From Amanita rubescens (Eukaryota; Basidiomycota; Agaricomycetes; Agaricales; Amanitaceae): a stretch of DNA of 64,000 nucleotides. Under the pieces are notes generated by a model. The model worked only from the letters and a program-made list of their open reading frames with translations. It had not been told where the DNA came from and made no database searches. Shown here in pieces: positions 3,349 to 64,000 of the stretch (positions are counted from its first letter, which is position 1; the number at the start of each line of letters is the position of its first letter). The translations under genes were made by a program, and so were the position numbers. The stretch lies in the NCBI GenBank assembly GCA_015039365.1, contig WION01000164.1, positions 1 through 64,000 of the forward strand, in the 5' to 3' direction.

Positions 3349-4575
3349 TCATTTGAACGACATGGATATTCGTACCATTGTCGGCGGCACGTCCTCGCGT
3401 CTCATAGATATCAACCTCGACTCTTCACTCCGTGTTTCCAAGAGGCCAGATATCGCGGTCATAACCTCATCACCATCATCTCGGCCCTGGAGACATGACA
3501 CCTCCAATTCCCGTAGGTTAGGCAGGCAAACGCCATCATTCATCCGCGTAATATGCTCTACAAGGAAAGAGCCATGTTCAGATTCCGTCGTCTTGATGCA
3601 GAGCACCTCGACGCTCGAAAGTAACTTCATAAGACGGGGCAACAGTTGACATACGTAGTTGTGCAGTGTCAATCGGCGAATGCGGCATGACGAATGACGG
3701 ATAAAAAATGATAGTTCTTCAGTAAAGACAAGGGAATAATGTTGCTCCTGAAACCCTGGACGCCAATCCACCCAAAGATGTTCCAGTAAAGGTGCTTCGA
3801 TCTGTGTCAGGATTTCACGACGATATATTGGGACCGCAAGCAACCGGAGAGACGCAAGCCGGATAGGGCACTGGTCGTGATCATCGTTCCTGACCCGGGC
3901 GCGAACTTTGCCCAGGCGTAGCTCCTCGATGTTTTGTAACTGTGGTAAAATTGTTTCCAGCCTTTTACCCCGATATCTCGATATCTTGAGTTTGGTCAAC
4001 TGCGACCAAGGAAACACCCATCCTCCGATCCATTTGAGAAGGTCAAGTTCGGTAAGGCGCGGCGCGGCGGTAAACGGGTGGTACAACCCGAAATTCGAGT
4101 CCGCACAGAGCCTCAGCGACTTGATGATTGGCATTTTACATCTGAGAAGATCAAGTAAGAGAGATTCGTGGCGTAGTGTCAGATCCGCCCTTCCCCATCT
4201 TTCAGAACAAGAAAGCAACAGTTTCCACGTCGTCCTCGGAAAACTTTCGAACGACCCCCCGTATGTACTTTGAACGGTTATGGTGAGTGGTAACCGCTCG
4301 GATCGTTCAAGGTACAAGAGTGTACGCCGACTCATTTCGTGGAGGCGATCCACGTCGACAATGTCGCTGAAATGATACCGTAGGGAAAGAGAGGTCCATA
4401 GATGTGGGTATGATAAAAATACCTCTCTCCAGTGTTTGCAAACTTGTCCTACAGCCCACGGGAATTCCCCAAAACATGAGCTATTATTCAGAACATGGAG
4501 AGAGATAGGTTTATAGCAGAGGAGTTGAAATATTTCGCAGAAAATTTCGGAGGGTATTTTCGAGTGTCCATTCAT
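3349..4575 (-). CDS. F-box protein, single exon
   Basis: This 408-residue open frame starts with an F-box-like domain: I-P-S-E-I-F-C-E-I-F-Q-L-L, then V-C-K-H-W-R-E-V-F-L-S-Y-P-H-L-W-T. Leucine-rich, repeat-like segments follow (for example L-R-L-C-A-D-S-N-F and I-E-E-L-R-L-G-K). F-box proteins of this layout normally bring substrates to SCF ubiquitin ligases; basidiomycete genomes hold large numbers of them and the targets are unknown. The frame is complete from ATG to stop with no intron needed. It is divergent from the first dioxygenase-like gene, with about 325 bp between the two starts. Confidence 0.85.
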   Translation of the reverse strand: MNGHSKIPSEIFCEIFQLLCYKPISLHVLNNSSCFGEFPWAVGQVCKHWREVFLSYPHLWTSLSLRYHFSDIVDVDRLHEMSRRTLLYLERSERLPLTITVQSTYGGSFESFPRTTWKLLLSCSERWGRADLTLRHESLLLDLLRCKMPIIKSLRLCADSNFGLYHPFTAAPRLTELDLLKWIGGWVFPWSQLTKLKISRYRGKRLETILPQLQNIEELRLGKVRARVRNDDHDQCPIRLASLRLLAVPIYRREILTQIEAPLLEHLWVDWRPGFQEQHYSLVFTEELSFFIRHSSCRIRRLTLHNYVCQLLPRLMKLLSSVEVLCIKTTESEHGSFLVEHITRMNDGVCLPNLRELEVSCLQGRDDGDEVMTAISGLLETRSEESRLISMRREDVPPTMVRISMSFK

Positions 4576-4900: not shown

Positions 4901-7900
4901 ATGACCTCAAGCGCGAGCAAGGCTGTCCCGGCAGCAGCAGGGGGGCACTTATGTGTACGTACAGCGCTTGACCTGATAGAAACCATTAAAATATAATGTT
5001 TTTAGGAGGATCTTGAAATAGCCTTGCAAGAGAAAAAAATGGGGGAGTCAGGATCATACAGATACTCATCTCTTTTGCCTTTCGCACCTTACCCTTGCTT
5101 AAACATCGAGGGCCTTGGATGTATTGGATTGCCTCTGTCTGAAACTGAAGCAAAAAGGGTAATAGCATGCGCATCTCAGGCGCCCCATGGTCGAGGTAAC
5201 CAGACCAGCAAGAAAGTACGAGATACTTGGGAAATCAATCCGGCGCGCGTCAAATTCGAAAATCCGAATTGGCTTACCTATGTACAAGATATGGCCGTTC
5301 AGACCGTGTCGCCCGCTCTCGGTTTGAAAAAACTTGACACTCCACCGCGGTGCGAGTTATATAAACTTTTAATTTACGGGACTGGTTCATGGTGCGGCAC
5401 CTCGTCTCTCTAATGGCTTATTGACTGATATCTCGGTAGCCTCCCTCCGCATAAAGAGTTCGTTTTAACATATATATCTAGCAAATTTTATTCTTATGAC
5501 GTTCGGATATAGAACCAAAAAAGCGGACGGCATTTTCGCAACCATGATCATTTTCTTACCGTCTCGATACACTGGCGGGGAGATTCACCTTACTCATGCT
5601 TCGAAAACACAGGTCATTGATTTCTCTGCATCCTCTTTGACGAGTACTGCCGTCCTTGCCTGGTACACCGACGTACTACATGAAGTGAAACCAGTAACCT
5701 CCGGCTATCAACTTGCGCTCTCCTATAACCTCATACACACGTCATCACGCATGCCGGTGCCAATGGCTCCAGCTGACGATGGTCCATGCGGAGAGCTCAG
5801 GCAACTGCTGGATAAATGGGAGAAGGGAAGATACGAGAAACCGAAAGACTGCGATTACATCGCGTATCTCCTAAAACACCAGTATGACGCCGGGGATTTC
5901 AGTCGTGGGGTATCCTGCTTGAAGGGACAGGATGAAGAAAGAGTTGCACTTGTTCGTGCAGCCGCAGAAGGACTGGGCTTCGTGATCCTCCTTGCTAACA
6001 TGGAGTATCATGTTTCAGGAGGCTTGGATGATTGCGACTACGGTTGGTCAAAGCGTCGGCCTATATGCGCATACGACCCCGTATACTCTAGATTTGGCGA
6101 TTTTGGCGATGGGGAGGTAGACGATTTTGATAATGAGTTCATAGACGTCACCCTCTCGAATATCGTCGACTTGGACGGGAATGTAGTGCTTGGCCCTAAG
6201 CGCTCCATGGAGATTGGTGAAGACCTCTTTCTCCCGAGGCATGCTCTGGATGGCGCGAGTCCCGATCACTCAATGGAGAGTGGTTATTCCAGTTATGTTA
6301 GTCCAAGTGTCAGATAATGTCGTATGTTTTTACTCACGTTGTGGTTGCGCAGGAGGGAACCGCAGTGGCCTACTGTACGTGGCCTATTCATGTTAATGTC
6401 GTCTAATACTAACACGCGTGTAGCGTACCGTCGCTCTGTTTTCGTACTGATATTGTCAGACAAGCTCCCTGGTATTCTACTGAGGAATGGTGGAATAGAA
6501 TACGTGATGAAGCTATTCAAGGACTCGCTTTCCGTGGATGCGCCTACGAAAAACCATAAAGAGCTGGCAAAGCAGATTATTAGTAACCTTTACTACAACG
6601 CAGGCAATGACAAGGTCCCAATTACGAAAGCCATGTTTAATTTTGCCTACAAATTGAAAGACGTTGAGATATGGCAACAAGTATTCAAAAGTTGGGGCAA
6701 TATTGAAGCGCAGGGTGAAAATGGACTACTTCGAGCGTGGCGTGTTTTCAAATTTGATCAAACTTGCCCAGGGTACGTTCTTGGTGTTCGATGTTCGTTT
6801 CCTACTAACATCATTAATATCTAGCATTGAGGACTTATTGCGTAACAGAGGCTTAACTGATAAGCTCACCTCTATCAATACTATCCGTCAAGCAGCCTCA
6901 GAATCGAATGAGAAAGATGCTATCCAAAAATGGTGCTCGAATCAGGTTTCGATCGCTCTGACATCCTATGTTTCTCCTAACGTCAAGGACGCACCATTCC
7001 TTGCCTCCATGGCCGGCGAGAACGGAATTCAAAGCATCCGGTCATTGTATGTTTCATATTGAACTGTTTCAAAAGTCGACGTCCCTGATTTACCTCTTCA
7101 GGCCCATTGAAAAATTTGTTCCTGAAAAGGCATTTCAGTTTTTAACCCTGCTTCTCATGGACCTTGTTTCGATGCGGACTGTTGTTCTACAAAAAACTGC
7201 AGCGCGTTGCGCAAGGAGCAAAGATCCGCAATCTGAAGCAGCTCGTACACTGGATGAGTTTATTAGGAGCTGTCTCGATTGTGCCGGAAAACAATGGGAT
7301 GTGGTGGCATCGGGTCCACTGACGGTTGGCTGGAATACCTCGTTCTATCCTAACCAAAGGCAATGCATTCTCGACATCGTCGAATTATGTCTTCTTACTC
7401 GCCAAATGGATAAATGCACCACTTTCCTCGACAAAGTATGGAACGTGGCAGGCGAAGTGGTGGATAAGTTTGAAAAAACCTATACGCCGCTTGTACCTGA
7501 GCTCTGCAAACTCCTGCAGAAGACAAGCACCGACATTTGTTCTCCGCCATTTATCGATTTCTTCCGCTTGTTGATCTCCCACTACCTGTGTTACGTGCTT
7601 GGTACAAAGGGACAAAATGTACAACCGGCACGCAAAATCGGTTGCGGTTGCGCTGACTGTCAAGAATTGGACCGCTTTATAGTTGGAAAGGAGTCGACGC
7701 ATACTTTCCGTTTCGTCCAAAAGAGAAGAAGCCACTTGGAGCAACAGATGAATAGCGCTCGAGACCTCGTGACACACGAAACGGAACGCTGTGGAAGTCC
7801 CTATAGCCTGGTGGTCAAGAAAACGAATATGTGGGAATACCGGATCAAAGCCGTTAACACCATGTTTGGCGCGATTGGCGCGAAAAATGTCGAGAAGATC

Positions 7901-38069: not shown

Positions 38070-41000
38070 ATGAAAAATACTGCTAAAGCCTCATCTTCAT
38101 TTGGTAAGTGAAAGCATCTTGGCACCAGCTGCACCACTGACATATATATGTATGACCTGTGAATATCAGATCCAGATCCAGAAATTTTATGGCTTCGGGA
38201 ACGATACAAGTGCCCACATTTTCGTATCCTTGTCATAGGGAGGGCTAATGCAGGCAAGACAACCATCTTAGAGAAGGTTTGTCAAGTAGCCAAGGGCACA
38301 AAGCCTGTCATATATGACGAGAATGGTAAGCAGAGGTCAATCCCATGTTTTATAATTATCACTTAGCTCCTTGTACATAGGTGAACAGTTGCTGCCTTCT
38401 GAGACCCATTTAATACCATCACCTGAGGCAAGTCAGATAATTATGCATAATTGTACTTTGCATATGTGACAATGGCAGAGAGGCATGCATGACATTGTGC
38501 ATCAAATTACATATGATGGAAGCAACTTTATCTTCCATGACTCTCAAGGTTTTGAAGCTGGTGCAATTGAGGAATTGGAGATTGCTTGGAATTTTATTGA
38601 AAAGAGGGCTGCAGAAACTGACCTAAAAAATCAGTTGCATGCAATTTGGTATCTCACTTTGGCTTTACAAAAATGACTGAATAAATTTCTTGTATAGGTA
38701 TTGCATACCCATGGACAGTCCTCGTCCTATTCTGCCCACAGAGCTTGAGTTCTTTAGTAAAGGGACAGGCAAAGGTAAGTTATACATCCCTGATGATAAG
38801 CTATGTCTTGGCTTTCCTCATACACCTTCTTTGTAAGTCATGTGCTGACTGATAATTTGCACTTTTACAGTTCCTTTGGTGGTTGTATTCACCAAATTTG
38901 ATGGGCAAATAATCAAGGAATATGTCGACTTGCCTGATGTGGATGAACATAAGTGGGACAAAGCTAGAGAGAATGCTGAAGCCACTTTTCGGACCATTTA
39001 TCTCCCCAAAGTCTTGAATACCCAATATCCTCCTAAGGGATATGTGCAATTGGAAGGTAACAATGACAAAATTGACTCCTGAAAAATAGAGATAATGTTG
39101 TTCAACAGACATGGATTTATCAGAGAAGAACTGTCCTGAATTGACTGAGACAACTGCTGATGCAATTGATGACATTGGCATACAGCAGCTGTTTGTTTCA
39201 ACACAGATGAATAATCTGAACCTCTGTGTTAAATCTGCACTTCAGTGAGGATGACATCCATAATATCACTTTCAAATATTTACCATTCTCAGACATGTTG
39301 TGGATTCTGAATTCTTCTGGAGATATGTTGTTCTTACAGTTCTCACTAAGTTTCCTCATTTTTGGGTGTGCATTTATTTCCAAACAGTGACAAAATATAG
39401 TGAAAACTTACCTGAGAACAGGTGAACAAAAGGGTCAGTGTCCTTTATGTAAGATGACCACTACCTTCAATAAGCAAATGAAACAGTTTGTAAGTAAAAT
39501 CTTAATCCCCTTTCATGACAATCTGGTTACCCATGCTTCAGAAATCCTTGAATGAAGTGACAGTGAGCTACATACATATCATCATGTCTTTTGTAACAAG
39601 AGCTAATGACATGGATGAAGTGGGTAGGTAGCATTGAACCAGATAAATAAGATCTTTTCTCATACCCAACAGTTTGTGAGTGATGATGATGATATGCTCT
39701 GTTGCTCAACAGGTCTCTAACTTGATCAACAGGCAGTGGGTGACATTCCATAACTTATGGCAGCATCTTAGCCTTCATTGTATGACAAACAGGAAGTAAG
39801 TTAAGCTGCTTTGTAAGCAGTCCTACCACACTCAATTGTAAAATCAACAGGCAGTGAGCAGCACAATTTATTTTTTCTGTTTTCATTCATTTGAAACCAC
39901 ATCCTTCTGCTTGCAGAAAGTATGTGTCATTGCAGAAGTGTGTGTCTCTTGTGTGACCTGATCAAATGAACAACAGAAAGTTGGTGACACTATTTTATTT
40001 GTGCAACCATCTCCCTCTAAAGTTGTCATCACATGAACAACAGCAAGTCAGTGACATTGCCATCTTTAAATATATATATTTTATGGTATAACAGGCAGTA
40101 AGTGAAAACATTAATTTCTTCATGCATGTCACATGATCCTCATCTTGCAACCAATAGGATGTGGGTGACACCTGTTTTACAGGGCAATCTCATAATATGT
40201 ATCTGATTCTGAGGCCAACAGAGAGTCAGTGACATTGCACCTCCTGGACAGCCAGACTCAACAGATCCCATTTCCCATTCCATAGGAAGTTAGTAACACC
40301 AGTCATTCTTTTAGAGTGGCATAACTCATCATATTCCCATGACCTGCAGAGGGTGTGCTATTTTCAAGTTCCTTTCAAGTAATTTGCTTCAACTTGCAAC
40401 ATGATTAATAGGAAGTAAGTAAAACAGCTCTTGTTCAAACAAATAATCTTACACATGAGTAACAGTTTGTGAGAATGTTTATTTCAAGGAAATTGACAGT
40501 TACATTTAATTGTGTACAGTTTGTAAGCTAAACTTTATTGCTTCTGCATGACCACCTCATTGCATCATACTGTAGGAAGTGAGTTGATGCTGTATTGATG
40601 CATGACATCTCATTGTACAGCAAACAGGATGCAAGTAGCCTTCCATTATTGCCTCCAAGACAGTAATTGTCTCATCTCTTCACACTTGTATAGATGGATA
40701 AGAGAAAAGCAAGTTCATTCATTTTACTAACAATTTCATGATGATGATGATTGAATAATTTAAAGGAAGCAAGTGACACTACCATATTCTCCACTATTCT
40801 GATCATATTGATTTTCAATGACCTATAGCTAGTGAGTGATAATGCATATTCCTTTGCCATATGTGCCAATTTGAGCAATAGACTGTGAGTCAGATCCTTC
40901 TCTGTCTTGTTATTGGCTTCAATGTGCCATCCAATGAACAGTATGTAAGTGAAGCCCCACAGTTCTCTGAAAGACAGTCTCTTCATATTTTTGATATGTC

Positions 41001-43380
41001 CTTGAACAGGGAGTGAGTGATATACATATGTATTCCTGAGGGCCAATTTCTTCACACTTTGTTCTAATAGGCGGTGAGGATCATTATACATTTCTGAAAT
41101 GCAGTCTCAACTATGACCAACAGTGGGTGGGTGCATACACTACTAAGTCTCATCCTTTTTTACCTGTGATCAACAGGATGTGAGTATTGTTTCAAATTTT
41201 CAGAACTACAGTTGCATTACCCTTTATTATGACAAACAGCGAGTTAGTAACAATGTGTACTGATTGGCAAAATAATCTGATCAATGTGTCCTATGATTAA
41301 CAGCAAGTAAGTGACCTTGGGCATTTCCTTGAAATATCTGATATTCTTGTGCAACCAATAGGAGGTGGGTGAAAATATACTTTCTTTCTACAATGATGCT
41401 TCATTCCATCTTCTGGTGTGACCATCAGTATGTGAGTAACATTCAGTGTAGCACAACTTTGAAAGTCTCTCTTATCACATCTTCCCCCATGACCCAATAG
41501 CATGTGAGTAATATTGCATATTTATTCAAACAAGGTACATCATGCCATATTCCTCTGTAATCAACAGAAAGTGTGTAGCTTTCTGACAGAATGTCTCACC
41601 ACACCTGTTTTATAATGAACAGGTAGTGAGTGACAATGCAAATTTTCTGTCAAGCCATCTCTTCACATTTCCCCCTAATTAACAGAATGTGAGCAACTTA
41701 GCACATTTTTCTGAAACAGTTGCATATGAATTTCAATAAACAGGATGTGAGTCTCATGGAATGCTTCTCTGAGACCCCACAACATAGTAATACCATCCCC
41801 CATAATTAATGAACAGGATGTGAGGTCATTGAAATGTTTTCTGAAATGCTGTTTTATCACATCTTCTCTTATGACCAACAGGAAGTGAGTATCATTGCAG
41901 TGTTTTTGAAGCCAATATCATTATATCCTTTCCTTGTGGTCAATAGTATGTGAGTGATGTTACATAATTTTTTTGGAATTATACATTCAACTTTACCACA
42001 AATAGATAGTGAGTGACATGTTGCACCAAACTCCTATGTATCTCCTTGCATTTCCCATGAGCAGCAAGTGAGTGATACTGCATGATTTTCTGAAAGTAGT
42101 CAATGCTCTTATGATAAATAGCTTGTGAGTGGCATTGCACATTGTCTAAAAGGCTCATTCATGCGTGGGCAACAGGCAGTGGGTCACATCATTAGATATT
42201 TGCCTGAAAATTAAAACATCACATCTTTTGTAACCAACAGCATGTGGGTGTCATTACACATTTTTCTAAGAGGTCATCTGATCATGTCTGTTCACATGAT
42301 GAATAGAAAGTGAGTGATAATATCTGCTTTCTGAGAGGTTATTTCAACTTATTTTGTGACCAACAGGTAGTGAGTGACATTTCACCTCTTCAATATGAAG
42401 CTGTCTCATCACATTTTATCCTATGACTAACAGCAAGTGAGTGATATTGCTCTGAAAAGTAGCCTCTTCACAACCCTCCTTATGACAAACAGAAAGTAAG
42501 TAATATTTCCACATCTCTCTGAAAAGCAATGCCAACACACTTTTTCCCAGGTAGTGAGTGACATTACCATTTTCTGAATGTAATGCCAAAACATTTCTAT
42601 GACCCATGGCAGGCAGTGAGTGGAACTGCACAACTTCTGGAAGTATTTCCATTTATCAACAACAGAAAGTAAGTTTCATTGAATATTGTTGAAAGGCAGC
42701 TCACAATTTTGGTTGATCCTTAGAAAGTGTGTGACATTGTTCATCTGATCTCCCATTGCATCACAATCATTTTATGGATGTTAGACAGTGAGAACACAGC
42801 CCTGCACCTTTAACACCTTGTCTGATCCCACTTTGTCTTAGATTGTGAGACACCATTTTAATGCTTTGCATCTGACCCTTGTGACCATTATGACTTTACA
42901 GGTAAGTAACTGTTGGTGGGAGACATTACCAATCTTGACATTGATTGATGTAGTGTGTAAGTCCAATGATACATTGAAAACTTCCTATCTCATTGTCAGC
43001 CTGAACTTTTCTCCTTGTTTGGAGATCCAAAATCAGAAACATTTTCAATAACTGTATGAGCTGAATTTTTACCTTATGTTAAATAACTTTTGATTTCTGT
43101 GCCAACAAGCCTGCCACCTGCCAAGTCTTAGCTGGTAGTCTATACCACCTCATTCACCATATTATAATGCTAATAGGCTCAAGCAACTGTAATCATTGCC
43201 AAGCTATCATTTTGGATAAACAAGCCATTTATAAAATCAGTGATGGAGGCCTTGGACCAATTCAAGAGCCACTCAGAATATGTGCAAAAATTGAAGGATT
43301 GCATTACTTCTGAGTCTATGCCCTTGGATCATGGTGAATTGGTTGCATTCCTGTACAAGCAAGTTACCAAAATGATTTAA
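38070..43380 (+). CDS. G-domain GTPase with single-codon exon array (microexon gene 1)
   Basis: Head exons: 38070-38103, 38170-38325, 38381-38427, 38479-38648, 38698-38774, 38871-39056, 39109-39244, 39293-39365 and probably 39422-39433. They encode G-R-A-N-A-G-K-T-T (P-loop), D-S-Q-G (G3) and T-K-F-D (G4), so a GTP-binding domain is clear. The middle is the array described separately: 54 three-base exons plus exons of 21 (39542-39562), 21 (39603-39623) and 15 bases (40694-40708). The tail exons 43000-43053 (P-E-L-F-S-L-F-G-D), 43110-43134 and 43177-43380 (A-K-L-S-F-W-I-N-K-P) match paralogs 2 and 3. In this copy the join between the last two exons is out by one base, since the acceptor adds a G, so the last 68 codons may be frameshifted or differently spliced. 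Function is unknown; the array encodes a charged, probably helical stalk. Confidence 0.75.
39487..42956 (+). other. Single-codon exon array of gene 1 (54 triplet exons)
   Basis: From TTT at 39487-39489 to TGT at 42954-42956 the unit 'acceptor AG, three bases, donor GT' recurs about every 61 bp. Examples: GCA 39733-39735, GAA 39793-39795, TAT 40942-40944, GGA 41010-41012, GCG 41071-41073, TGG 41124-41126, CGA 41240-41242, ATT 42842-42844. Typical unit: 'gaccaacag' then a codon then 'gtgagtgacattgca'. Each gap has a branch-point-like TGAC, TGAT or CTAAC about 5-15 bases before AG. Decoded, the run before the 15-base exon reads F-F-A-E-A-K-K-Q-A-D-R-E-R-E-F-F-E-D. After that exon comes E-L-T-Y-G-A-W-D-R-Q-E-Y. 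No triplet is a stop. Between ATT and TGT the acceptor at 42,901 touches the donor at 42,902 with no base between. Confidence 0.8.
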
Positions 43381-52212: not shown

Positions 52213-55200
52213 TTAAATGAAGTCAATGACCAGTTTGTAGAGGAATGAAACCAAGGCTTCATTGTTATCTTCAGAAGGCATTGACTCTGATGTGATTTGA
52301 GTTTGGATCCTCTCCACATAGTCTTGTTGAGTCTTGAATTGGTCCAAAGCCTCCATGAATGATTCCAAAATTGGCTTGTTGATCCAAAATGATAGCTTTG
52401 CAATTATGACAATTGCTTGAACTTCATATTAGCATATATGTAGAGTGAAAGAATGGTATACTATATTACCAGCTAAGACTTGGCAGGCTGTAGGCTTATT
52501 ACAGCAAATCAATTATTCATCAATGGGAAAAACACAGCACGTACAGTTACTGAAAATTCTCCTGGTTGGTCTCCAAACAAGGAGAAAAGTTCAGGCTGAC
52601 TATAAGAAAGAGGAAATTTCCAATGTAATGCTGGACTTACACACTGTGTTAATTAATATTGAGATTAAAATATTCTGCAACTTGACAACACTCACCTGAA
52701 AAGCCAGGAAAATCAAGGGTGTCAGGTGCAGTACATTCCAAGAGCCTCTCACAATCTATGGATGACAGTAAAATTAGAGAAAGCAACAATGGTCTAAGAC
52801 TACTCTGTTCTCACTTTCTGTAATGTTAATCAAGGACATGGATGAATTGGGATGTGTTGGAATTTCAGAAAATTGAGGCATTTCACACACTTCCTATGGG
52901 TAATGTCAAGTGCCTCCTTGAAAGAAGGTTTAATATTACTTACATCCTGTTGGTCATAAATTAGATAGTACCATCATGCTTTCATAAATTTGAACAATAC
53001 CACTCACTGCCTGAAGATTGTGGGGTGATGGGGACTACTTTTCAGAAAAGTGTACTGTCACTCACTGCCTATAGGTCATTGGGAAAACACATTGGTCACT
53101 GTATTGTTGAAAATGTGCAACATATTCCTCACAGCCTGTTTATGGTTATAAAAGCTATAAAAAGGACATTGTTCAGAAAATGGGCAAGTTACATTACTCA
53201 CTTTCTGTTTATCATGGCAGAAAACATGATGAAATTGGCTTTCAGAACAATAGAAGATGGTGCTCACATCCTGATAGTCAAGATTGCGATAAGTTTCACA
53301 AAAGTGTCTAATGTCACTCACTGCCTGCAAGTTTATTATGCATGACATAAATAGTCTTTTCAAATACTCATATGCAATACCACTCACAAGCTGTTCATCA
53401 TAGGAGAATATGTGATGCAACTACTTCAGCAAAGTGTGGAGAATGACTTACTTCCTGCTCATCAAGGAAGATATAGTTTTTGTGTGGCAACTAGTAGTAT
53501 CACTCACTTCCTATAATAGGTTATAGTAAGGGATGAAGTACACTCTCAGATGACTTTGCAATATGACTTACATGCTGTTGACCATAAGATTTGGTGACAT
53601 CACTGTTTAGAACATTGGTTACTCACTTGCTGTTGGTCATAAGAGGAGATGTGATGAAACACTGTTTCATGAAACTTGCAATGGCCTCACCTTCTGTTAA
53701 TTAATTATAAAAGAAAGATATGATGAGATAACATCTCAGGAAATGAGGAATGACATTCACTCTCTGTTGATAGAAGGTGAAGAAGTGATTTACATGAGAC
53801 AGATTTTGCAACAATTGCTCACTAGCTGTAATGATCCACACATAGGAAATATGTGATGAGATAACTTGTGAAAACATTTGCAACATCACTGACTTCCTGT
53901 CAATCAGGAAAAGATGATGAGACAACCTTGCAAAAAAGAACAAGATGTGATGTCACTCACTTCCTATTGATCAAGGGAGAGATGAAGCAGGTTTCAAGAG
54001 TTGAAATGTTTCTCACATCCTATAAGTCACAGTAGAATATGTGATGAGATAGATTCCCAGGGATTTGTGCAATGCTCTACCCACATACTATCAGTCACAT
54101 AAGAAAGTATGAGGCAGCTGCTTGAAAAAAGATGACATGTTACTCACTTCCTGTTGATTGCATAATATAATCAGATTGCATTTCAGAAATGCACAATGTC
54201 ACTTACTTGCTGTTGGTCATAGGCGCTTGAATCTGATTACATTACTGAGAAATGGTAGATTGTCACTCACTCGCTTTTCATCACAATAAGGATAGGATGC
54301 AACTGTTTATCCAAAATTTGCAATGTCACTCACATCCTATTAATCATTTGAAAAACAGAATGAGATTGCAGTTTGCAATATCACTCACCCACTATGGGTC
54401 ATACATAAGCAAGACTGCATTTCACAATGTGTAATCATACTCACTGCCTGTTAGAATATATCATGAAGAGATTGGCTCTCAAGGATATATTACTCACTCC
54501 CTGTTCAAGGGAAAATCAGAAAACTGTTTTCCAGAGAGCCACATAGTTTCACTTACATACTGTTGTTCATACTATGTGTATCAGATTTGACTAGGCAAGC
54601 ACTTGACTCACAATCTGTTGCTCACATGATTTTATGACAAAATAATGTATTATGACTCACTTTCTATTGGAAATGATGGTTCTATGAGATGTAATCAAGA
54701 TGGTCAAACATGTTGTAGTCTTACTTGCTGTCAAGGGCTCAATTATCATGATGAAACTAATAGAAAAATGAAGACACTTGCTTTTCTCTTCTGTGACTGT
54801 TGATTGTGATGTGAGGAGTACCATTTCAACCTTGCAAGCAAGTGTAAATGCTACTTACACTCTATTTGTTGTGCAAAGAGATGTGACACAACTGTGCATT
54901 GATGTAGTTTCAACTTACTTCCTGCAAAAGAATGATGTGATGAAGCTGTCATATAGTTAACACCAAAATGATGCTTACAAACTGCACATCATAAAATTGG
55001 AGGCATAAGACTGCCAGGTTCTTTAAAATTAAGGTTCTCACAAACTGTTGCTCACAACTCAAAATTGCACATTTGAAGATGGTAAGTTACCCACTTCCTA
55101 ATGATCATATTGCAAGATGTGGTGTGATTGCTGAAAGAGGAAAGATCAAATGGCTCACTCTCTGCATGATGTGGGGATGTGATGAGTTTTCCAATCATAA

Positions 55201-57451
55201 AAAGAGTGTGGTGTCAGTGTGTCACACACCTCCTAAGTTAATCATGGAATAGGAAGCAACAGTGAGTCTTGCTGTCAAGGAAATCTCACTAACTTTCTAT
55301 TGATTTCAGGATGAGTATATGCATGTCCTGAGATTGTTTCAGAAGAAATGTAACCCACATCCTAGTTGCAAGGTGATAATCATGAGACATCCATGAAGAT
55401 ATGGAAGTCACTACTTACTGCCTGTTGTTGCACAACAAAATAATTAAATTGTATAATTGGGGAAATAATGACTGTATCATTCACTTGCTGTTCACAGGAT
55501 GAAAGGATTAGGAGAGCTGTCACTCAGATAAAAATATAATGTACCAACTTTCTGTTGTTCACTGAATCAGGTCATACATAAATAAATTGTAATGTCACTC
55601 ACTTTCTGCAGGCAAGAGGATTCAATTTCATGTAATTAAAATGGTAATAAAATGCTGCTCACTGCCTGATGATTTTTCAGTGTAATATGATTGAACGACA
55701 TACAAAGCAAAGCAACTCACATCCTGTTTGTCATACAATGAAGGATAAGTTGTTGCCATAAATTGAGGATTGTTACCCACTGCCTGTTGAGAATGTTACA
55801 AGTTTGTTAAGCAGTAAATCATGGATCATTCACAAACTGTTGGCCATCAGACAAACCATGTCAAATGTATGCTGTTTCATTTGTATTTACCCACTTTGAT
55901 CCCTATTATTCAATTTTGTTGCAAAGTGAAAATATAACTTACTTTTATTTCATTTGAGGAAGCCTGAAGTATGGATAACCAAATTGCCATAAAAATGGAT
56001 TGAATAAACTGACAATCTGCTGCATAAGGTGTTTTTCAAGATAGCTGTAATTTTATAGAAATGACACTGACATTTCTATCCACCTGCTCTCAATTGAGTT
56101 TTCAACTACATAAGTACTATTTGCAAAACATGCATACCCAGAAATGTGGGAATTTAGTGATAACCTCAACAATGATGGTATTCCATGCAGTAATGTCATC
56201 AAGCACATGTCTGAGAAACATAAATATTCAGAAAACATATTATACATAAGTGATCCTCACTGAATTGCAGATTTAACACAGAGATCCAGATTATTCATCT
56301 GTGTTGAAACAAAAAGCTGGTGGATAATGTCATCATCAATTGCATCAGCAGTTGTCTGGGTCAATTCAGGACAGTTCTGCTCTGGTAAATCCATGTCTAT
56401 TGAACAGCATTATTGCTATTTGGGGAAAGAAATTTTGTTATTCTGACCTTCCAATCTCACATATCCATTGGGAGGGTATTGAGCATTTAATACTTTGGGA
56501 AGATAAACAGTCTGGAAAGTAGTTTCAGCATTCTCCCGGGCCTTACCCCACTTATCTTCAATCTCAACATCCAGCAAATTGACATATTCATTGATTATTT
56601 GACCATCAAATTTGGTGAATACAGCTACCAAAGGAACTATAAAAATGCAAGTTGTTGGTCAGCACATGTCTTGCAGAAAGGAGGTATGAAAAAAAAACCA
56701 ATTGAAGGCATCCTACCCAAACAAACATTGTGAGAGATAAATATCTCAGGACCTACCTTTGCCAGTCCCCCTGCTAAAGAACTCAAGCTCTGTAGGTAAA
56801 ATGGGTCGAGGACTGTCCATTGGTATGCAATACCTACAAGAGGCTTGGTCAGCTAGTTTTATATACCGTAGCCAAAGCCAAAAATACCAAATTGCATGCA
56901 ACTGATTTTTCAGCTCAGTTTCTGCAGCTTTCTTTCCAATAAATTCCCAAGCCATCTCCAATTCCTCAGTTGCACCAGACTCAAAACCCTGAGAATCATG
57001 GAAGATAAAGTTGCTTCCATTGTATGTAATTTGATGCTCAATGTCATGTATTCCTCTCTGCCATCATTAAATATGTTTGATTTATGTATCATCATTGAGT
57101 TTACCTCAACTGATGGAATCAAATGAGTCTTGGAAGGTACCATTTGATTACCTATAAGGAATTATATAGTTGAAAGAGAATAAGGAAGAGCATGATTCCT
57201 CACCATCCTTGCCATATATAACAGGCTTTGTTCCCTTGGCTACAATACAAACCTTCTCCAAGATGGTTGTCTTGCCTGCATTAGCCCTTCCTATGACCAG
57301 AATACGAAAGTATGGGCATTTGTATTGTTCCCTAAGGCCTGCAATATCTGCATTAGATATTCACAGGTCACATGTCAGTATTGTGTCAGTGCTGTCAAGA
57401 TACATATTTTGACATACCAATTGGTGATGTAATACTAGTAATGTTTTCCAT
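52213..57451 (-). CDS. G-domain GTPase with single-codon exon array (microexon gene 2)
   Basis: Head exons on the minus strand: 57451-57418, 57347-57205, 57151-57105, 57057-56888, 56833-56757, 56636-56448, 56396-56261, 56210-56138 and probably 56083-56072. Six of these have exactly the same length as in gene 1 (34, 47, 170, 77, 136 and 73 bases). Motifs: G-R-A-N-A-G-K-T-T, D-S-Q-G, T-K-F-D. The array follows (56,016 to 52,641). Tail exons encode P-E-L-F-S-L-F-G-D-Q, then C-Q-V-L-A, then an exon 52421-52213 with A-K-L-S-F-W-I-N-K-P. Here the last two exons join in frame (G plus TT gives Val), so this copy reads through to the stop at 52,213. It is the best candidate for a functional gene of the three. 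Confidence 0.8.
52641..56016 (-). other. Single-codon exon array of gene 2 (52 triplet exons)
   Basis: Seen on the plus strand as 'actcac', three bases, 'ctgttg' every 60 bp or so, which is the reverse of AG, codon, GTGAGT. It starts with ATT (56016-56014) and ends with TGT (52643-52641). It contains the 15-base exon 54796-54782 (S-Q-K-R-K, donor GC) and a 21-base exon at about 55,945 (A-S-S-N-E-I-K). Decoded core: A-D-K-E-R-E-F-F-E-S before the 15-base exon and Q-K-I-Y-G-A-W-D-R-Q-E-Y after it. Acceptor and donor touch with no exon base at 52,695/52,696. No stop triplet. Relative to gene 3 two units are missing near 53,180, which removes exactly two residues. Confidence 0.8.
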
Positions 57452-60695: not shown

Positions 60696-63600
60696 TTAAA
60701 TGAAGTCAATGACCAGTTTGTAGAGGAATGAAACCAAAGCTTCTTTGCCATCTTCAGAAGGCATTGACTCTGATGTAATGTGAGTCTGGATCTTCTCCAC
60801 ATAGTCTTGTTGAGTCTTGAATTGGTCCAAAGCCTCCATGAATGATTCCAAAAATGGCTTGTTTATCCAAAATGATAGCTTTGCCATTATGACAATTGCT
60901 TGAACTTCATGTTAGCATATACATAGAGTGAAAGAATGGTATACTATATTACCAGCTAAGACTTGGCAGGCTGTAGGCTTATTACAGGAAATCAATTCTT
61001 CATCAATGGGAAAAACACAGCACGTACAGTTACTGAAAATTCTCCTGGTTGGTCTCCAAACAAGGAGAAAAGTTCAGGCTGACTATAAGAAAGAGGAAAT
61101 TTCCAATGTAATGCTGGACTTACACACTGTGTTAATTAATATTGAGATTAAAATATCCTGCAACTTGATAACACTTGCCTGAAAAGCCAGGAAAATCAAG
61201 GGTGTCAGGTGCAGTACATTCCAAGAGCCTCTTACAATCTATGGATGGCAGTAAAATTAGAGAAAGCAAAACAGTCTAAAACTACTGTTCTCACTGTCTG
61301 TAATGTCAATCAAAGACATGGATGTGTCACTGGGATTTCAGAAAATTGAGGCATTTCACACACTTCCTATAGGTTAACAGAATAATGTCAAAGGGCCTGT
61401 CTTAAAAAGGTTTAATATTACTTACTTCCTGTTGGTCATAAGATATGATAGCATGCTTTCATAAATTTAACAATACCACCCACTGCCTGGAGATTGTGGG
61501 ACAAAATGAGGACTACTTTTCAGAAAAGTGTTCTGTCACTCACTGCCTATAGGTCATTGGGAAAACCACATTGGGCACTGTATTGTTGAGAATATGCAAC
61601 ATATTATCCCTCACTTCCTGTTTGTGGTTATCAAAGTTATAGAAAGGTCATTGTTCAGAGCATTATCACTCACATGCTGTTGGTTATGAAGGGGAATGTG
61701 ATAAAAGAACTTCAAAATAATGTGCACTGTACTCACTACCTGTTGGCCATAACATAGATGAAGTTATAATAAAGAGAAAATGGGCAAGTTACATTACTCA
61801 CTTCCTGTTATTGTGGCAGAAGACATGATGAAATTGCCTTTCAGAACAATAGAATATGGTGCTCACAGCCTGATAGTCAAGATGATATGTTGCAATAAGT
61901 TTCACAAAAGTGTCTAATGCCACTCACTGCCTACAAGTTTATTATGCATGTCCGAATAGTTAGCCTTTCATACTCATGTACAATACCACTCACAAGCTGT
62001 TCATCATATGTAGGAGAATATGTGATGTGACTACTTCAGCAAAGTGTGCAGAATGACTTACTTCCTGCTCATCAAATAGATATTTTGAGATTTAGTTTTG
62101 TGCAATTAGTATCACTCACTTCCTGTAGGTTATAGTAAGGGATTCAGAGGTGCACTCTTAGAAAACTTTGCAACATGACTCACATGCTGTTGACCATAAG
62201 ATTTGATGACATCACAAACACTGGTTACTCACTTGCTGTTGGTCATAAGATGAGATGGTGATGAAACACTGTTTCATAAAATTTGCAATGATCTCACATT
62301 CTGTTAAGTAATTATAAAAAAATGATATGATGAGATAGCATTTCAGGAATGAGCAATGACATTCACTCTCTGTGAAGAAGTGATTTACACAAGACAGATT
62401 TTGCAACAATCAGTGCTCACTAGCTGTAATCAGACACAAGAAATATGTGATGAGATGACTTGTGAAAACAACTGCAGCATCACTGACTTCCTGGAAAGAT
62501 TTGAATCTTTCAAAAAAACACAAGATGTGATACCACACACTTCCTATTGAGCAAGGAAGATGTGATGAAGCAGGTTTCAAGAAAAGTTGAAATGTTTCTC
62601 ACATCCTATAAGTCACATTAGAATATGTGATGAGACAGATTTCCTGGGATTTGTGCAATGTTCTACTCACATACTATCAGTCACAGAAGAAGGTAGGCAG
62701 CTGTTTGAAAAAAGATGCAATGTTACTCACTTCCTGTCAATTGCATAATATAATCAGATTGCATTTCAGAAATGCACAATGTCACTTACTTCCTGTTGGT
62801 CATAGGAAACTTGAATCTGATTACATTGCTGAGAAATGTACATTGTCACTCACTCGCTTTTTGTCACAATAAGGATAGGATGCAACTATGCATCTGAAAT
62901 TTCCAATGACACTCACATTCTGATAATCATACAAAAAAGAATGACATTGCATTTTGCAAAATCACTCACCCACTGTTGGTCATAGGTAAGACTGCATTTG
63001 AAAATGTGTAATATACTCACTGCCTGTTAGAAAATATCATGAAGAGATTGGCTCTCAAGGATATATTACTCACTCCCTGTTCAAGGGAAAATCAGAAAAC
63101 TGTTTTCCAGAGAGCCATGCAGCTTCACTTACATACTGTTGTTCATACTATGTGTATCAGATATTTGAACTAGGCAAACTTGACTCACAATCTGTTGCTC
63201 GCATGATTTGATGACAAAAGAATGTGCATCATCACTCACTTGCTATTGGCAGTGATAGGTCTATGAGATGTAATCATGATGGTGGAAAATGTTGTAGTCT
63301 TACATGCTGTCAAGAGCTCAATTATCATGATGCAATTAATAGAAAAATGAAGACACTTGCTCTTTTCATCTCTGGCTGTTGATTGTAATATGAGGAGTGC
63401 CATTGCAACCCTGCAAGCAATGTTACTTACACTCTATTTGTTGTGCAATGAGATGTGACACAACTTCTGGGTCCATCAATGTAGTGTCAACTCACTTCCT
63501 ACAAAAAGAATAATGTGATGAAGCTGTCATGTAGTTAATACCAAATAATGCTTACAAACTGCACATCATAAAATTGGAGGCATAAGACTGCCAAGTTCTT

Positions 63601-64000
63601 TGAAATGTAAGATTCTCACATACTGTTGCTCAAAACTCAAGATTGCACATTTGAAGATGGTGTTACTCACTTCCTAATGACCATATTGCAAGATGTGATC
63701 TGATTGCTGGAAGAGGCAAGATCAAATGGCTCACTCTCTGCATGATACAGTGGGGATGTGATGAGCTTTCCACAACAAAAAAGAGTGTTGTGTCACACAC
63801 CTCCTGTTAATCATGGAATAGGAAGTAACAAGTCTTGCTGTCAAAGAAATCTCACTAACTTTCTATTGATTTCAGGATGAGCTACACATGTGTATGTCCT
63901 GAGGTTGTTTCAGAAGAAGTGTAACCCACATCCTATTAGTTGCAAGGTGTTAATCATGAGACATCCATGAAGATATGTAAGTCACTACTTACTGCCTGTT
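60696..64000 (-). CDS. G-domain GTPase with single-codon exon array (microexon gene 3), 5' part beyond the right edge
   Basis: The tail exon 60904-60696 (A-K-L-S-F-W-I-N-K-P, stop at 60,696) is almost identical to that of gene 2, as are the C-Q-V-L-A exon and the P-E-L-F-S-L-F-G-D exon at about 61,035-61,085. Upstream the array fills the rest of the window (61,124 to at least 63,990). The GTPase head must lie to the right. The last-exon join is in frame, as in gene 2. The flank beyond the stop is also shared with gene 2, so these two are the closest pair. Confidence 0.75.
61124..63992 (-). other. Single-codon exon array of gene 3 (46 triplet exons in view)
   Basis: Same layout as in gene 2. 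TGT lies at 61126-61124, the zero-length site at 61,178/61,179 (donor GC), and the 15-base exon at 63375-63361 (P-E-M-K-R, donor GC). Decoded core A-D-K-E-R-E-Y-F-E-S before it and H-Q-I-Y-G-A-W-N-R-E-E-Y after it. The next 23 triplets start D-E-E-L-R-N-Q-H-E-E-L-A and end E-E-T-I, the same number as in gene 1. No stop triplet. Confidence 0.8.

Follow-up and report, generated by a model that had tools for sequence, protein, structure and literature searches.

The sequence analyzed here (the window) is a 64,000-nucleotide (nt) stretch of Amanita rubescens, positions 1 to 64,000 of WION01000164.1, which is contig C73 of the 75.7-Mb, 786-contig assembly used throughout. A sequence-only reading had drawn attention to a putative GTPase gene, gene 1, in which a conserved head and tail are separated by an array of recurring three-base exons. 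Gene 1 spans 38070-43380 on the + strand, and its joined model encodes 455 residues without an internal stop. The splice chains of gene 1 and of a second family member in the window, gene 2, were scripted and then adjusted by hand against each other. The features of gene 1 are as follows, a slash marking a splice boundary here and below.

38070..39433, + strand: head, nine coding exons in an open joined frame, encoding a GTPase with the P-loop GRANAGKTT
38070-38103, 38170-38325, 38381-38427, 38479-38648, and 38698-38774, + strand: head exons 1-5
38871-39056, 39109-39244, 39293-39365, and 39422-39433, + strand: head exons 6-9
39487..42956, + strand: array of 57 phase-0 exons, comprising 55 three-base exons plus single exons of 21 nt (39542-39562) and 15 nt (40694-40708)
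42900..42903, + strand: zero-length exon AG/GT, boundary 42901/42902, within the intron that separates ATT (42842) from TGT (42954)
43000-43053, 43110-43134, and 43184-43380 (stop), + strand: tail exons, in an open frame

The recurrence of the array is real and is larger than first noted, with 55 three-base exons where 54 had been counted. From its first exon, TTT (39487), to its last, TGT (42954-42956), the array reads as a single open phase-0 chain, as had been proposed. The further claim of more than 50 consecutive one-codon exons did not hold, as the 21- and 15-nt exons interrupt the series; the longest unbroken run is 36 (40766-42956), and another of 18 precedes the 15-nt exon. A run of 52 returned by the decoder described below was discarded because it skips across the 15-nt exon. 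Three interrupting exons of 21, 21, and 15 nt had been described, and those at 39542 (21 nt) and 40694 (15 nt) were retained, but for the second 21-nt exon, at 39917, AAA is the better reading, given that gene 2 carries AAA/gtgagtgac there. Most array exons have the GT donor assigned to them originally, but three donors are GC (GCAAGT, after the exons at 40628, 40694, and 40766). The acceptor of exon TGG (39621) is AAG.

The gene 1 head is identical over 298 residues to the deposited protein P0001 (F5887DRAFT_624095), the model of which terminates one residue into the array. Genes 1 and 2 matched Pfam MMR_HSR1, which represents TRAFAC-type GTPases, at E=0.0029 and 0.0048, below the cut-off, and 45 of 49 relatives matched it at E<=0.01. 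Among the matches listed, relatives of the GTPase head are spread across many mushroom genera.

The motif [CT]AGNNNGT[AG]NG occurs 46 times in the gene 1 array and 0-2 times per 3470-bp interval elsewhere on the + strand, and two more arrays stand out on the minus strand, with counts of up to 45 and 42 where the background is 0-4. In a count made independently of the decoder, the nearest upstream YAG lay exactly 3 bases from the GTRAGT donor in 28/29, 25/28, and 25/26 cases in the arrays of genes 1, 2, and a third family member, gene 3. Genome-wide, ACAGNNNGTRAGT was found at 5803 sites versus 329 for the reversed pattern. Chance recurrence was rejected on these three counts. With TAG left out, TAA or TGA was present at 3 of the 5803 sites versus 10 of the 329 reversed-control sites. 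The three stop-bearing sites (C67:57243, C537:2935, and C557:79206) all have TGA and none has TAA; they are possibly broken copies.

A decoder that scores splice signals and is blind to codons was run over 39 loci, partly overlapping or allelic, and assigned a length of 3 nt to 1046 of the 1101 exons it called. The coding test set comprised 1004 three-nt exons that passed a site filter, 702 of them with distinct contexts. None of these 702 is a stop codon, compared to 35 expected from position-wise composition, although array units share descent and these are therefore not 702 independent tests. The share of stops at three intronic control positions was 1.6 to 2.8%. The third base is C in 1 of the 702, and CAG, TAG, and AAG are rare. 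The residues most often encoded by the linker codons are Q, E, L, K, R, and G, a composition that may suggest helices.

The joining of such exons was then assessed with protein relatives, of which 120 were listed from 1142 matches and 41 of those 120 were examined. Several Joint Genome Institute (JGI) proteins, from contigs 1.1 to 1.7 kb long, extend from the head through the linker into the tail. Four of them (P0073, P0103, P0079, and P0002) were searched against the genome; five loci were taken for the first three, and one locus was aligned per protein. The contigs of P0073, P0079, and P0103 measure 1107, 1099, and 1143 nt, and the matched genomic stretches 4.8, 4.0, and 2.8 kb, respectively. 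In the same order, 65/66, 51/52, and 35/35 linker residues were identical and in sequence, mostly from one-codon exons, compared to maxima of 26, 22, and 19 with shuffled peptides (20 shuffles each), scores of 27, 17, and 16 with reversed peptides, and 11 to 22 when each locus was paired with the linkers of the two remaining proteins. The one-codon exons agreeing in order number 59 for P0073 at locus L049 (58 plus a GAG with a GCGAGT donor, recognized later), 40 for P0079 at L050, and 23 for P0103 at L048, with a single F/Y difference overall. At L049, the longest unbroken run matched by protein is 32. Some aligned residues come from array exons of 6, 9, or 15 nt, and P0079 fits several near-identical loci. 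The accepted GC donors are GCAAGT three times in gene 1 and GCGAGT once in L049; the later decoder allowed GCAAGT as its only GC donor.

Decoding without reference to protein gave peptides nearly identical to P0073, P0079, and P0103, and the decode RGGGSNEDQFFFGEQRDKI of L027/L028 preceded the reading of P0073, which contains RGGGSNEDQFYFGEQRDKI. The three proteins share one start point in exon 6, which may reflect retention of an upstream intron. P0003, P0004, P0005, and P0019 likewise cover the whole span between head and tail but derive from less similar genes. P0003 and P0004 are near-identical in head and tail and differ in their linkers. P0002, the closest of these proteins to gene 1, matched the array peptide of gene 2 with 38/66 identities (E=7e-21) and that of gene 1 with E=1e-15. 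Its last 19 residues best fit the intron after GAA 52893 of gene 2 in frame 0, the best of 162 gene 2 intron-frame readings (44 versus 26 for the next). P0002 is free of the earlier array introns but keeps what reads as the orthologue of this one, so splicing appears to be imperfect.

Taken together, these results support the ordered joining of one-codon exons in the sister genes at L048, L049, and L050, each exon adding one residue as the sequence-only reading had supposed, and we infer the same for gene 1. It is very probable that this Amanita GTPase family builds its head-tail linker codon by codon through ordinary short-intron splicing. Several observations weigh against this interpretation. 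The decoder was trained on sites spaced by 3 nt and so favors 3-nt exons; it also called 17 short exons whose length is no multiple of three, along with 26 exons of at least 40 nt, most of which we take as errors. Three 2-nt and three 4-nt exons occur in locus L040. That the JGI contigs are RNA is deduced from their small size. The locus alignment covers P0073, P0079, and P0103; the other proteins read include P0003, P0004, P0005, and P0019 and five JGI proteins with odd ends (P0006, P0007, P0043, P0048, and P0066). One AAG unit of L048 has no counterpart in P0103, and P0002, with its retained intron, would end early. No gene 1 transcript was found among the proteins examined.

In the proposed mechanism, each one-codon residue would be a 3-nt phase-0 exon set between spliceosomal introns of about 61 nt. 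Each short intron would be recognized singly, by intron definition, and neighboring introns would be removed successively, so that the growing exon gains one codon per step. The joining is supported for the sister genes; intron definition and the order of removal are proposed. Intron definition in sequence is plausible, as it suits arrays whose introns are short (a median of 61 nt over 1170 introns, alleles counted) and whose donors are strong. At the zero-length site of gene 1, which reads AG/GTAAGT, no exon is left, which would imply stepwise removal at that place. The same AG/GT zero-length sequence, which has the form of a ratchet site of recursive splicing, was found at the matching place in 15 of 19 tail-locus rows and 16 of 25 rows overall, several of them alleles or close paralogs, and in 7 of 1103 control windows; L048, L050, and L051 gave no row in this tally. 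With a change in U1 RNA in mind, U1 was sought and was found neither in this genome nor in 14 control genomes. As each repeat consists of an intron and a single codon, adding or losing a unit keeps the frame, and the linker could lengthen, shorten, or change residue by residue. The linker is likely a variable recognition or coupling segment of the GTPase switch, perhaps one acting in self/non-self recognition.

One alternative accepts that the exons are joined and holds that the triplets are kept by splicing constraint alone, stops being avoided because they would create donor or acceptor sites, with the resulting peptide a neutral filler. The scarcity of third-base C and of CAG, TAG, and AAG indicates that splicing does seem to constrain the triplets, and in close gene copies the triplets change about as often as the introns, nearly always non-synonymously. 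Against neutrality, the blocks AKKQAD and AWDR are common to gene 1, gene 2, and P0002, and WFE.GKK..DRE is common to several loci, and we consider the filler explanation unlikely. Rather improbable is a second alternative, in which the exons are real but serve as cassettes, varying subsets being skipped to give many in-frame linkers per gene. One-codon units are frame-neutral, and the AAG missing from P0103 and the intron kept in P0002 would fit this; the AAG difference may, however, be one of strain, and among the three proteins aligned, P0073 and P0079 carry nearly every unit decoded blind at their loci. That the array is a decayed tandem repeat within one large intron, the head being joined directly to the tail and the triplets unused, is very improbable: the model of P0031 does connect head to tail through only a few residues (VMMKQ), and that of P0001 ends after the first array codon, but P0103 matches exons of C106 (92-98%) and of C650, the contig of P0031 (88-95%), with the array codons of the locus present in order, stops are absent from one-codon exons, and the splice dinucleotides are conserved. 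Skipping of the array as one large intron was rejected for L048, L049, and L050, provided that their contigs are RNA. A contiguous, intronless version was sought with one 76-residue array peptide, in a search that had no positive control, and no genome match was found.

We also examined how the units diverge. In L040, the 44 units whose intron starts with one exact 35-base stretch have an identical 62-bp intron in 41 cases; their codons are CAA, CTA, CGA, or CTT, and five units have CA, CATT, or GCT instead. When unit pairs identical outside a 3-base window were sought in seven arrays, 553 of 762 such pairs differed at the exon triplet compared to 70 of 4196 at intron windows; all came from L039 and L040, and none from the other five arrays. 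A near-identical 35-base intron stretch (<=3 mismatches) has 1697 copies genome-wide versus 0 for the reversed control, many of them in tandem among the 100 places listed; introners, for comparison, are near-identical introns dispersed over unrelated genes. Variable codons amid like introns could reflect diversifying selection, change directed at the triplets, or copying that is bounded by the introns. A broader proposal, which we regard as unlikely, is that the arrays form a codon-by-codon diversity system, in which splice-site-bounded copying would keep the introns uniform, or change would be directed at the triplets, the fungus thereby composing and editing a recognition peptide residue by residue, and skipping would perhaps add isoforms. 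The repeat domains of fungal NLR proteins likewise have a few hypervariable residues within homogenized repeats. There the repeat is translated, whereas here the repeat is the intron.

The sequence-only reading knew of no gene with such a run, and no precedent was found in the open-license literature searched; neither a paper treating Amanita and microexons together nor a frame-neutral intron-plus-codon unit altering protein length or sequence was found there. Like microexon-rich genes at large, gene 1 has numerous internal exons no longer than 30 nt (57 in its array), their splicing being supported through the sister loci. The micro-exon genes (MEGs) of schistosomes have 10-20 exons of 6-81 bp (3-81 is also given), mostly 15 bp, with introns up to 5 kb, and encode secreted proteins (PMC10526429). 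The Amanita genes resemble these in having tiny in-frame exons, in resisting annotation, and in being multigene and variable; they differ in their one-codon exons, which come in runs, in their introns, which measure about 61 nt, and in their GTPase products, so that 3-nt exons and a median intron of 61 nt stand where MEGs have 6-81 bp exons and long introns. Aphid bicycle and megacycle genes have very many microexons, one megacycle gene having 118 exons (PMC9168663), but these encode 2092 residues, at about 50 nt each. Single-nucleotide exons are described for Arabidopsis APC11 (PMC4674806, which proposes intron definition with recursive splicing) and Fusarium CYP621A (PMC12940212); such exons are too small for exon definition, as here, but there is one per gene and no array. 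Tiny fungal exons are likewise described for a lipS gene with two of 3 nt (PMC5639578) and for Trichoderma Xlr2 with one regulated microexon (PMC11121469), but as one or two in an ordinary gene. The splicing chemistry here is presumably ordinary, whereas the architecture is unusual, in that introns divide the coding stretch at almost all of its codon boundaries. With unbroken runs of 36 in gene 1, of 32 with apparent RNA-level support in a sister gene, and of up to 85 from decoding alone, this large family tests the minimum size, and the number in succession, of the exons that a spliceosome can join. The deposited models P0001 and P0031 stop at the array or skip it, so genes of this kind may lie unnoticed in other genomes.

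The other family members in the window lie on the opposite strand, as follows.

56072..57451, - strand: gene 2 head, nine coding exons
52641..56016, - strand: gene 2 array of 55 exons, comprising 53 three-base exons plus single exons of 21 nt and 15 nt
52595-52545, 52494-52470, and 52415-52213 (52213..52595), - strand: gene 2 tail exons
61124..63995, - strand: gene 3 array, in-window part, 46 exons by blind decoding (45 of 3 nt and one of 15 nt, with GCA at 63995); the head lies beyond 64000
60699..60902, - strand: last tail exon of gene 3, from a tail-exon match

The joined model of gene 2 (52213-57451) encodes 451 residues, GAA at 53896 being preferred over TCA (53892). Codon order is largely common to genes 1 and 2 (WFAEAKKQADREREFFE versus WFADAKKQADKEREFFE), and both contain YGAWDRQEY. 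In a DNA alignment of the two, 23 of 51 aligned triplets are identical, and intron interiors differ at 901/2336 sites versus 11/202 for the AG and GT dinucleotides, some of which may be misalignment. The corresponding figures are 224/1971 versus 0/174 for genes 2 and 3, and 102/5858 versus 1/500 for seven closer pairs. A homologue search with the gene 2 region returned only P0003 and P0004, and a search with the low-complexity linker plus tail of P0084 returned only P0084 itself.

Genome-wide, the tail exon of the gene 1 type gave at least 150 scored matches from 218 candidates, allelic copies included, many forming equal-score groups that resemble haplotypes. Upstream of the best 30 of the 150 (L009-L038), one-codon exons were decoded in every case, with a minimum of 4. 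The longest runs, by decoding alone, are 85 (L042), 73 (L039), 56-58 (L041), and 44-75 (L044), the lower figures for L041 and L044 applying when introns longer than 80 nt are disallowed. Contig C737 carries, at about 91000-114200, close copies of family genes resembling genes 1-3, and is possibly allelic. Elsewhere in the window, an open reading frame at 3349-4575 (- strand) has F-box-like and leucine-rich repeat matches under their cut-offs.

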